Below, one piece after another: positions 6,928-59,110 of a stretch of 64,000 bases of DNA. The translations under genes and the position numbers were made by a program. How positions within the stretch are numbered: the stretch's first letter is position 1; the number at the start of each line of letters is the position of its first letter. The stretch spans positions 183,546,396-183,610,395 of the forward strand of contig NC_091120.1 of the NCBI RefSeq assembly GCF_040183065.1. The letters run 5' to 3'. The stretch is from Periplaneta americana (Eukaryota; Arthropoda; Insecta; Blattodea; Blattidae). A model generated the notes under the pieces. That model saw only the letters and a program-made list of their open reading frames with translations, did no database searches and was not told the origin of the DNA.

Positions 6928-7023
6928 ATGCTCAGGAACTTTAGTTTAATTGTACTTATACTCGCGTTGTACAAGGAAGTGAATGGTGACAGCAAAGACA
7001 ATCCCGAGGCATTTCTGGACGGG
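6928..7023 (+). CDS. Acid lipase exon 1: start codon and signal peptide
   Basis: Thirty-two codons from the ATG at 6928. The product begins MLRNFSLIVLILALYKEVNG, a basic residue followed by a hydrophobic core, which is a typical secretion signal; cleavage near residue 20 is likely. The following NPEAFLDG fits the conserved start of the mature acid lipase (the N-P-E-A motif that precedes the GYP motif). The exon ends at the donor gtgagtg at 7024, phase 0. Upstream the sequence is AT-rich. No in-frame ATG of comparable quality was seen, and no convincing TATA box was fixed. The exon is only 96 nt, so the call rests on its fit to exon 2 and to the family. Confidence 0.82.
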
Positions 7024-7399
7024 GTGAGTGTGCATACGTACTCTACTGCCAACAAACTAATTTTATTTTAAAAACTTCAATATCAATGAAATAATGTGAT
7101 AAACTGGTAACAGAGGAAAATTTCAGTCGCCAAACGCGCTTCTTGCTAAAAAAAATTTCCGATTAGTAGGTTCTCAAGTGTAGATTCCAGCATGCCTTTG
7201 TTTTGGCGTGAAAGAGCAGCCATAGCATATCGTACGGCAGCCGTGGCGAAAATGTGATTCACGTGCACACTGTGACTCGCAATGATAGCCGTGCATTTCT
7301 CTTGCTTTCTATCTCCCACAACACCCACCCTCTCACTCACTGGAGTCAAACTCCGTTCCATTTGTATTTGTCTCTGATCTACGAGTGGCGTATCGTCGC

Positions 7400-7575
7400 A
7401 ATGTCTCTCTCGAATACATGTACATCTACAAAAACGAAAGTTTCAAGTAGGATGGGAGGACGCATTTTTTGCTGCCAATATGGTGAAAATATTAAATGTA
7501 TGATTTGTTCACCAGTATTACAAGGAAAACGGTTGCATAACATACAACGGCATTACACTACATGTTACTGATGAA
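7400..7575 (+). pseudogene. hAT BED-finger remnant in intron 1
   Basis: The plus-strand frame reads MGGRIFCCQYGENIKCMIC and later HNIQRHYTTC. This is a C-x-x-C and H-x(4)-C finger like those at 4139 and 27215. Only the N-terminal finger is present. Confidence 0.7.
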
Positions 7576-7590
7576 ACATTGAAAGGTTAA

Positions 7591-7642
7591 GAGTTATTAT
7601 TATTATTATTATTATTATTATTATTATTATTATTATTATTAT
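7591..7642. repeat. (ATT)n microsatellite
   Basis: Run of ATT units directly after the BED-finger remnant. Confidence 0.95.
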
Positions 7643-7854
7643 TTCTGTACGTCGATTCTTTTTCAGCAGATGTAAGAATAATGCGGTTAGATCTTCAATT
7701 TAAACTCACAGATTTACAATGTGACGTTAAATGAAAGCTAGATGTAAGGACTTGACAAATGTTGAACTTTTCAAATCGTTGCCAAAAAATAAATATCTGA
7801 AGCTTCGTTCTTTCGCTTTCTCTTTTGAAGCCATGTTCGCTGCAACTTACGTTT

Positions 7855-55466: not shown

Positions 55467-56271
55467 GTTTCTCTCACTATCTGTCTCTTTCGACGCAAAC
55501 GCTAGCAGCCGACCGCCTTCCCAACTGGCGTCTAGTTTTTTTTCTAGTAATGCTGTTATCGTAACGATTCTAAGTTCAGAATCTATTTGTAGCATACCAT
55601 ATATTCTAAACAAGAAATGCATTGTATTTATTAAATCTGTGAACGTGAACAAAAGACATCTCTCATTTTCGCTCAAAATACGTTTTCGTGTTTTGAAGAA
55701 AAACTTTGAAATATAATTTTTGACCTTCTTGAAACGAATGTTCATATGTAGGACCAATATTAGGCTATACATAAATCTCGATGAAATATTCTTTTTTATT
55801 TTCTATGTCTGATTTTGACATTAAAGGTCTGTTCTGACTGTAATTTAATATTCTCCATATGCCTTTTGGTAATACACTGTTTCTCAAAAGGATAGCGTTC
55901 TGTCTATCCTTATATCTTTTTGCACAACTTGCAAAATGCAGTTTTTTTTTCCTTTACTAAAAAAAATATTCCTTTCCGAACTTCTCTATAAGTTCGTTCT
56001 GAAGGAAACGCTAGATACTCTTAATTTTCGACATTTTCCTCAGTACTGTGAATTATAAAACATCGAAATTAACACTCACATAAATATGCCTAAATAAAGT
56101 CAAAATGAAAAGACAAAGAAGAAATAAAGCAGTCAAGAAATGAAAGAAGAAACGAAAAATGAAATAATAGGAGAAATAAAAAATTATACATGGTGGGCCA
56201 GTCAAACGGAAACATTTGATGGGAGTATACTGTTCATATGGATAGGGTGAGAATGATTGGGTGAGATTGGA
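55467..56271. other. Intron 6 sequence, nothing identified
   Basis: AT-rich; no element ends recognised. Confidence 0.45.
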
Positions 56272-57168
56272 TTGGATAAAAAGTAATGGCTACAGTTCGA
56301 TATTTCTGACATGGCTTTATTCACAGGGGTACAACATTTATGTACCTTCTATATAGTCGCACCCCTTAATTATTATGTTTTGCCAAATGTTTGGAAGGCG
56401 TCGTACACCATCAGCGCGTCCATCTTTGTTGATGTTCCGTATTGACCGCCCTAAAGCACGGATAAGTTCATCTCTGGTATTGTACCGGGTCCCTCGCAGT
56501 GGTTCTTTCACTTTGGTGAAAAAGATCGTAATCGCATGGATCATATCGGGTGAGTACGGTGGATGTTCCAGTAGTCCGCGTTTTCCGTCTGCCTTGGAGG
56601 TACAGCGTGGTGCAGTATTACCCCATCAGTGTCATACGCCACAATGAACATCTCCTTCACAGCACTTTGTGTAGGGCGCACTTTCTTTGGGCGAGGAGAA
56701 CCGGGATGCCTCCATTCATTCGATTGGCGTTTCAAGTTTGGTTCATACGAGCGAGTCCAGTTTTCATCCATAGCGACGATTCGTTCAAGAAAGTCGTCAC
56801 CTTCCCTTTGGTGCCGGTGCAACAAGGCCTTCCCAGAACGCTTTAACCCATCGTGCAACTGTGCGATATGGCAACGCTGCATCGCCACATGCTTCACGCA
56901 GTCCCTGAAAACATTCTTGTGCACTATGACCTCGTGCCATTTCAATTTTGATCCAGGAACGTTGCTCTAGTTTTGTAAGGATGGTCTTAGGGCGCTCGCA
57001 CTATCCCTATGAAAGTGAACGTTCTACACACTGCAGTAGATTGATGGAGCACTGTCGCCGCTGGCTGCACTAACTCATCTAACAGTCCTTGTTCATGTCT
57101 ACATAGCTGGCAGCTCTCGAACGCACCATCGTCACGTGACAGCAGTGTTGCCATTACTTTTTATCCAA
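56272..57168 (-). mobile_element. Internally deleted mariner element
   Basis: Perfect inverted ends ttggataaaaagtaatggc and gccattactttttatccaa. The minus strand 56945-56541 reads DGLKRSGKALLHRHQREGDD, FLERIVAMDENWTRSYEPNL and HPGSPRPKK, the first catalytic Asp block (MDE). It then jumps at about 56570 to the C-terminal end (56544-56338; KVKEPLRGTRYN, RRLPNIWQ). The block with the second and third acidic residues is deleted. Confidence 0.92.
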
Positions 57169-57249
57169 CCTATGTATAACCGTCTCTTCTCTACCTACTT
57201 GCTTTACAATTCATGACACAGGCGGTGACGTCACTATCTCCGCGTTCCC

Positions 57250-58190
57250 TAGCAACCAAGTTGTTTGCCTCTATTGTGTTTTGTTAAATGGTGCTCATCG
57301 TTACTGCAAACTGCAATTAATTAATTTCATTGGAACGTTGGGCCGCGGAACAGCGCGGCTAGACACATAAAGCGCATTATATTCATAACGAGTAATGTTG
57401 CAAGGTGTTGGTAAAATAATGGTTTGGTGTGCAATTTGGAAAAATCGTATTGTTAGGCCGTATTTTATTGAGCAGAACCTGAGTGCCATTTCTTATTTGA
57501 ACATGTTGCAAGGAAAACATCTTTCCTGATTTATTAAACGAAGAGGTGAATTCCCATATTTTTTTAACAAGATGGCACTCCACCCCACTATGGTCTTGCT
57601 GTTCGAAACTATCAGTCCACACCTGTGAAGTAACGGTCAGCGCGTCTCGCCGCGAAACCAGGTGGCCCGGGTTCGAATCCCGATCGGGGAAAGTTACCTG
57701 GTTGAGGTTTTTTCCGGAGTTTTGCCTCAACACAATACGAGCAAATGCTGGGTAACATTCGGTGCTGGACCCCGGACTCATTTCACCGGCATTATCACCT
57801 TCATATCACTCAGACGCTAAATAACCTAGATGTTGATACAGCATCGTAAAATAACCCAATAAAATAAAATAAGAAAACTATCTGGAATAACAGTTTCCTG
57901 GACACTGGCTTGGTTGGCGTGGACCAGTAGAATGGCCGGCCACATCTCTAGATTTAACACCCCTTGATTTTCTCTTTTGGGGTTTATAAAGAGCTCGGTA
58001 TATGAAGATAAAATTGAGAATGTGGAACATCTAAAGAACCCTATCATTTAGGCCTGTGCTAAAGTCACCCGGAAATGCTACAAAATGTTCTCTCTGACTG
58101 CATCGTCGAAAATGGACAACATATTGAGCACATTTGTAGAATTTTCTTTATGTGTCATTGTGACAATTATCATTTAATGAACTGAAAATG
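57250..58190 (+). pseudogene. Mariner-like transposase remnant split by a SINE
   Basis: Plus-strand segments: MVWCAIWKNRIVRPYFIEQN (57418-57477), then QDGTPPHYGLAVRNY near 57570-57613 (second Asp). After the SINE come HWLGWRGPVEWPATSLDLTP and LDFLFWGL near 57900-57985, with a PLDF block around the third acidic residue. Frameshifts and stops occur. A different mariner family from 56272. Confidence 0.85.
57614..57874 (+). mobile_element. tRNA-derived SINE with 8-bp target duplication
   Basis: B box cccgggttcgaatcccgatc; the body has gttgaggttttttccgg, a caccttcatatcactcag stretch and the tail gatgttgatacagcatcg with A-rich end. Target duplication aaactatc at 57606-57613 and 57875-57882. Confidence 0.92.
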
Positions 58191-58967
58191 ATTACAGATA
58201 ACTCAAAACAGATTCCACCATTGTTAATACATTGAAACTGTCATAGGTTAACCAAACAGTAATGGAGGAAAAGTTAATTACCAGAATTGCATAAAAATAC
58301 CTTTTCCAAAGCCTTCTTAGTACTGTACCATGTTATAAAATATCTGTACATGCAGTAACTAATGTTTGTGTCATTATGACAGTCATCTTTAAATAACTTG
58401 AAAACGATTAGATATGTCTCGAAACAGATTGTGTCATTATTTCTTTTTTCAGAAAATTTCACATGATTCTGAGTACCTACATGACCCCTTTCCATTCAAA
58501 ATTTCAAAATTGCATCCAAAATTGCGGCTTTTGAGATAGCTGAGGGCTAGAATCGAATGTGTCACTGGTAGAGCATTCGGTCTTACAAATACCGGTAATA
58601 ATCGAAAATCAAGCATATGGAAGATATTTATATGGTTCCAGACTTTTGATTCATCCTGCATTACGTGTGAGTTTACGATGAACGTTTTGAGTACACTACA
58701 GCATGAGATAGCTCATATGTGCTTTATTATATTTGCTCACTGTCTATGAAAAGTTTCTACTCCACTGTTCGCGCAGAGGCGGCCAAACTAAAAATATACA
58801 CCTGTAACAGATTTTATGTTGGAGTCAATATGACTACGACATATTTCAGAATCCTGTATGCTTTTCTGGTGACACGCATTCACACACCTACAATGCTAGT
58901 AAAATCAATAGCTGTAATTGTATTTTACGTAGACGGAATTGTAACATTGTCGGCTGATATTTTTCAG
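58191..58967. other. Intron 6 tail before exon 7
   Basis: AT-rich; nothing recognised except the exon 7 acceptor. Confidence 0.5.
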
Positions 58968-59110
58968 GGCGTTTCTGTCAATATGACTACGGAAAATCTG
59001 AAAACCTAAAACGCTACAACAGGACACAACCACCCAGCTACAATATCAGTGAAACAAAAGTGCCTGTTGCTATACTCTACTCAGATGGCGATGCTTCCGC
59101 CGATGTAACT
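58968..59110 (+). CDS. Acid lipase exon 7: catalytic aspartate segment
   Basis: Two bases of codon 304 to residue 351. Acceptor ttttcag, donor gtaagt (59111), phase 0. The product has FCQYDYG at 306-312, then the NLKRY block, P-P-x-YN, and VPVAILYSDGDASADV. This is the family's Y-DYG, P-P-x-YN and Y-S-x-x-D-x-L-AD blocks in order. Asp345 aligns with the catalytic aspartate. The remaining part, normally a D-V-x-x-L helix followed by the N-H-x-DF histidine motif, is not found in 59111-64000, so the gene is incomplete at its 3' end. A nearer GT inside the exon at 59105 is possible but the gtaagt at 59111 is the better donor. Confidence 0.92.

Follow-up and report, generated by a model that had tools for sequence, protein, structure and literature searches.

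We analysed a 64,000-nucleotide (nt) window of the Periplaneta americana genome (RefSeq assembly GCF_040183065.1, contig NC_091120.1, positions 183,546,396 to 183,610,395), in which a gene of the acid lipase family can be pieced together from seven exons on the + strand; all gene coordinates are positions in this window. The exons were rebuilt from the letters at the outer coordinates proposed in an earlier note, which had described seven ordered exons, GT-AG junctions, intron phases of 0, 1, 2, 0, 0 and 1, and 351 codons, and each of these particulars was reproduced exactly. Exons 1 to 7 measure 96, 205, 118, 247, 159, 85 and 143 nt, adding up to 1,053 nt (351 codons, no stops), and all six introns (7,676, 10,174, 7,130, 15,876, 5,016 and 5,258 nt) run from GT to AG. 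Their mean length of 8.5 kilobases (kb) agrees with the average of more than 8 kb given before, and together these long, repeat-rich introns spread the gene across more than 52 kb.

Exon 1 (6928..7023, residues 1-32) carries the start codon, a signal-peptide-like hydrophobic segment and the sequence NPEAFLDG, of which NPEAF joins the alignment with dog gastric lipase (1k8q). After intron 1 (7024..14699, phase 0), exon 2 (14700..14904, residues 33-101) encodes the Abhydro_lipase region (PF04083) and HGLSGSS, which starts at residue 82 of the joined protein. Intron 2 (14905..25078, phase 1) leads to exon 3 (25079..25196, residues 101-140), containing AYMLADQGYDVWMPNLRGNEYS, and intron 3 (25197..32326, phase 2) to exon 4 (32327..32573, residues 140-222), with the nucleophile elbow GHSMG from residue 169 (Ser171). 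Intron 4 (32574..48449, phase 0) is followed by the lid exon, exon 5 (48450..48608, residues 223-275), the counterpart of human LIPA exon 7, with hinge Pro235, Cys248/Cys258 and Glu267. Intron 5 (48609..53624, phase 0) falls at the codon position where an intron separates exons 7 and 8 of human LIPA, and exon 6 (53625..53709, residues 276-304), the 5' end of which matches human LIPA exon 8, supplies the C-terminal part of the cap, including His296 at the place of LIPA His274. Beyond intron 6 (53710..58967, phase 1), exon 7 (58968..59110, residues 304-351) reads RFCQYDYG...NISETKVPVAILYSDGDASADVT and holds Asp345 within SDGD (from residue 342). HGLSGSS, GHSMG with Ser171 and the Asp345 segment are all present at the residues first reported for them. 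A GTAAGT donor follows directly on exon 7, which means that the gene extends further in the 3' direction.

The joined protein gave one continuous alignment each with dog gastric lipase (residues 24-349, E 2.3e-61, 211 bits), human gastric lipase LIPF (1hlg; residues 26-349, E 9.2e-61) and human lysosomal acid lipase LIPA (6v7n; residues 25-350, E 1.3e-55). A partial chain lacking exons 3, 5 and 6 scored 119 bits in three pieces against 1k8q, versus 211 unbroken bits for the full chain. Two Pfam families were recognised above their cut-offs: PF04083 (Abhydro_lipase) at the N terminus, with 65.7 bits against a cut-off of 27, followed by PF00561 (Abhydrolase_1), with 72.2 bits against 25.8. The putative nucleophile Ser171, in a GxSxG-type GHSMG motif, aligns with the serine in the GHSQG motif of the three solved lipases, corresponding to the family nucleophile numbered Ser153 for LIPA in passages of PMC7397744, and the catalytic Asp345, at the GGxD segment, aligns with Asp324. 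Both gastric lipases share with the window protein the GxSxG serine, the GxD aspartate and the cap cysteine pair, and in all three the N-glycosylation site is absent at the LIPA NKT position; they differ from it in having GHSQG rather than GHSMG and a hinge Gly rather than Glu. These results support the assignment of the joined translation to the acid lipase (gastric/lysosomal, LIPA/LIPF) family, as the earlier note had proposed. That note had also held that the gene would be refuted if exons 5 and 6 did not fit a family alignment; against the three vertebrate structures both fit, exon 5 weakly in identity. Among insects, Drosophila Magro and Lip3, described as LIPA orthologs in passages of PMC9261307, would be the expected functional kin. 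In prokaryote genome contigs nine stretches matched a pattern, and none of the nine encodes a relative.

The strength of each exon by itself was assessed by tblastn with the three solved lipases, using ten block-shuffled windows and the reversed window as controls. Exon 4 (E 2.7e-14 with 1k8q), exon 2 (E 2.6e-11 with 1hlg), exon 7 (E 1.2e-6 with 1hlg) and exon 3 (E 3.5e-6 with 1hlg) were each significant alone; no match in the reversed window was below E 0.67. Exon 6 alone was at chance level, with a best score of 25.0 bits (two of the three references matching) compared with 21.9-25.8 bits for the best match per shuffled window (n = 10), and exon 1 alone, at most nine residues of which overlap the references, gave no tblastn match. 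The individual weakness of exons 5 and 6 is what could be said for reading the chain as open stretches joined by chance, without an underlying gene; however, four of the exons reach significance singly, all on the same strand and in the correct order, and the whole chain aligns unbroken, so that this explanation is refuted already and its probability is negligible.

We also ranked the proposed exons 2, 3, 5 and 6 in context, swapping in stretches from the neighbouring introns for the proposed exon and scoring the resulting chains against the three references; exons 4 and 7, being significant alone, were left out. Candidates were bounded by AG and by GTA or GTG, had 0.6-1.5 times the length of the proposed exon with the same remainder of three, and were open in frame. 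The proposed exon came first in every case, among 99 open candidates for exon 2, 183 for exon 3, 62 for exon 5 and 120 for exon 6, and the margin was wide for exon 6 (512 versus 473). Exon 1 was likewise first of 70 ATG-to-donor candidates, its segment being the most hydrophobic among the rows listed; alternative first exons were rejected, as the proposed one scored 14 and the runner-up, which has no hydrophobic segment, 5. The GC content at third codon positions (GC3) of the exon chain was 0.593, compared with a GC content of 0.364 across the window and of 0.335-0.389 in its introns, and no exon base fell inside a within-window repeat. The window showed no duplicate lipase exons: tblastn of the joined protein recovered all seven exons at E 1.6e-13 or better, and the next of the matches listed had E 2.6 or worse.

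We are highly confident that these seven exons form the 5' part of a normal animal acid lipase gene of the LIPA/LIPF family, one that probably has eight exons in all. Directly observed are the seven exons and their frame, the splice signals, the family membership, the Ser and Asp residues, and the cap markers. Passages of PMC9143690 give eight exons as the commonest arrangement (55.49%) among 182 acid lipases of 12 fig wasps, with seven exons in 24.73%, which fits seven exons found and one missing. Several points weigh against this interpretation. The model was built from genomic sequence alone and compared with three vertebrate lipase structures only. A family motif scan of 59,111-64,000 did not detect a last exon bearing the catalytic His, so the gene as assembled in the window is incomplete. 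Exon 5 alone had no tblastn match with any of the three solved lipases, and its identity in the MAFFT alignment was 8/52 and 8/52 to the two gastric lipases and 10/52 to LIPA (15-19%), compared with 32-49% identity to the references for exons 2, 3, 4, 6 and 7. Its 5' boundary is also less sure: the margin in the ranking was narrower (512 versus 507 for the same exon with its acceptor at 48420, 48420-48608), and the acceptor could be 48420 rather than 48450.

These properties of exon 5 bear on the possibility that it was mis-assigned, the true lid exon lying elsewhere in introns 4-5, using another acceptor or being split in two; the candidate list covered GTA/GTG donors, one phase class and single exons. 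The best unrelated stretch, 45275-45421, scored 497 (15.6 lower) and was rejected because it sits in a repeat with a further copy at 32694-33413. Exon 5 at 48450-48608, first of its 62 candidates, contains both the hinge proline and the cysteine pair, together with the opening half of an N-x-S sequon that exon 6 completes, and we regard a mis-assignment as very unlikely. An AGT-type microsatellite (48612-48722) starts inside the exon 5 donor (GTAAGTAGTAGT; 48609-48722), and slippage of this repeat could reach into the splice signal.

The earlier note had suggested looking past base 59,110 for an N-H-x-DF exon, and none was found in 59,111-64,000 by motif scan, segment scan or AG-to-stop ranking, the latter two with C-terminal lipase segments as queries. 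The segment scan with two C-terminal segments reached at best 29, below the + strand chance level elsewhere (38), and among 52 AG-to-stop candidates the top score was 29, lower than the 32 reached by the best-scoring of 698 such stretches upstream. A looser scan for H.[DNGS]F-type motifs in the same interval gave eight matches, including HVNF at 59843 and NHLD at 60845. As His exons both were rejected: HVNF is preceded by a stop, with no space for the expected residues, NHLD lies within a repeat (60394-61743), and neither was among the best-scoring AG-to-stop candidates. We infer that the terminal exon with the His lies beyond base 64,000. The same absence could also mark a decayed or truncated lipase copy, a former gene that has lost its 3' end or yields an inactive product, and the strongly diverged lid with Glu in place of the hinge Gly would suit such a copy. 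However, the 1,053 nt hold no stop or frameshift, all six introns have both splice sites intact (12 of 12), the catalytic Ser and Asp are retained, GC3 is high and the most diverged exons keep their cap markers; moreover, with introns of 8.5 kb on average, it is unremarkable for a terminal exon to lie over 4.9 kb downstream. We therefore consider decay improbable and keep to the reading of a normal gene continuing past the window.

The cap encoded by exons 5 and 6 was compared with that of human LIPA. PMC7397744 assigns residues 205-253 of mature LIPA to exon 7 and residues 254-277 to exon 8, and in PMC9779616 the deletion of exon 8 is written, with precursor numbers, as S275_Q298. phmmer aligned Ser276, which opens exon 6, with LIPA Ser254, placing the junction at LIPA 253/254 in phase 0; the intron between exons 5 and 6 thus stands at the same codon and in the same phase as the human LIPA exon 7/8 boundary. 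This junction splits an N-x-S sequon, with Asn274-Gln275 on one side and Ser276 on the other, corresponding to LIPA Asn252-Met253-Ser254. By phmmer, exon 5 begins (residue 223) near LIPA 202, about three residues off the exon 7 start, and MAFFT places an eight-residue gap there, so that the match to the LIPA exon 7 start is approximate only. Unlike LIPA exon 8, exon 6 ends about four codons further on, in phase 1. The cap aligned end to end, with LIPA Pro214, Cys227, Cys236, His274 and Gln277 conserved in the window protein; Cys248 and Cys258 occupy the places of Cys227 and Cys236 with one extra residue between them, and a disulphide is predicted.

The lid proper diverges strongly, with 5 of 30 residues identical to LIPA. 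One hinge, LIPA Pro214 (numbered 214 in the legend and 241 in the discussion in the relevant passages of PMC7397744), is kept as Pro235, whereas the other, LIPA Gly245, is replaced by Glu267, and the LIPA lid cysteines 240 and 244 have no Cys counterpart. Between dog gastric lipase and human LIPA, too, identity is lowest in the exon 5 region (24/52), which indicates that a fast-changing lid is usual in the acid lipase family. The diverged lid with Glu at the glycine hinge would be the one unusual part of this gene, and we do not claim that it is special among insect relatives. Because of the Glu at the hinge, the lack of Cys at LIPA 240/244 and the low lid identity, the lid exon may have been remodelled, such that the enzyme may open unlike gastric and lysosomal lipases, take another substrate or only bind lipid; we consider such a remodelling rather unlikely, and the gene is an ordinary acid lipase, its diverged lid aside.

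The introns contain several other elements. The earlier description of them as mostly transposons is plausible and stands in part: repeats are present, and reverse-transcriptase open reading frames (ORFs) lie in intron 4, but repeats of at least 80 nt that recur within the window account for 10, 38, 63, 49, 0 and 10% of introns 1 to 6, or about one third of all intron sequence, a lower bound that counts within-window copies without a repeat library. Pfam searches covered 20 other ORFs out of 52 of at least 95 residues. Two of them (42533-43093 and 43754-44149, − strand) matched RVT_1 above its cut-off and run antisense to the lipase gene, and 15 of the 20 had no Pfam match at E 0.01. Matches below cut-off were a mariner-type transposase fragment in intron 6 (56544-56966, − strand; Transposase_1, 22.6 bits versus 24), a DDE helix-turn-helix domain (17.7 versus 27) and DUF6886 (18.8 versus 27). 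Intron 2 holds a tandem satellite of 98 bp units (15125-16817, about 17 copies, 93% matches). A dispersed repeat (16827-17741) comes directly after this satellite and has copies at 30892, 34825 and 60394. Large palindromes occupy 27034-30094 in intron 3 and 38515-41372 in intron 4, with arms of about 1.2-1.4 kb that are 90% and 87% alike and spacers of 600 and 133 nt, respectively; their arms could pair in the primary transcript. A transfer RNA (tRNA)-Asn-like sequence with a GTT anticodon in intron 4 (44375-44449, − strand; Rfam, 42.9 bits) could represent a tRNA gene or, alternatively, the leading part of a short interspersed repeat.

The gene would be transcribed, and its product would enter the secretory pathway, as suggested by the signal-like N terminus and the lack of Asn at the LIPA NKT site. 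According to passages of PMC3324826, the N-glycosylated NKT site (Asn161-Lys-Thr in precursor numbering) targets LIPA to the lysosome. LIPA LNKTG reads LEKTG in the window protein, with Glu at Asn140, and KKT in the gastric lipases, so the site that marks LIPA proper is lacking. As EKT at this site and KKT in the gastric lipases favour a secreted, gut-type enzyme, we lean towards a product that would be secreted and gut-type rather than lysosomal. Lipid esters would be hydrolysed by a predicted Ser171-His-Asp345 triad beneath a movable cap and lid, with the His expected in the missing last exon. Passages of PMC9143690, citing others, state that most insect lipases lack triglyceride hydrolysis despite intact caps in acid lipases.

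Except for a cap-domain intron at the same codon and in the same phase as in human LIPA, this is a routine annotation result in a long-intron genome: the family is well known, the gene is an ordinary member of it, and its 3' end was not located within the window. It is, at the same time, a sound example of a gene that is invisible to any single long reading frame, recovered from raw sequence and verified exon by exon.

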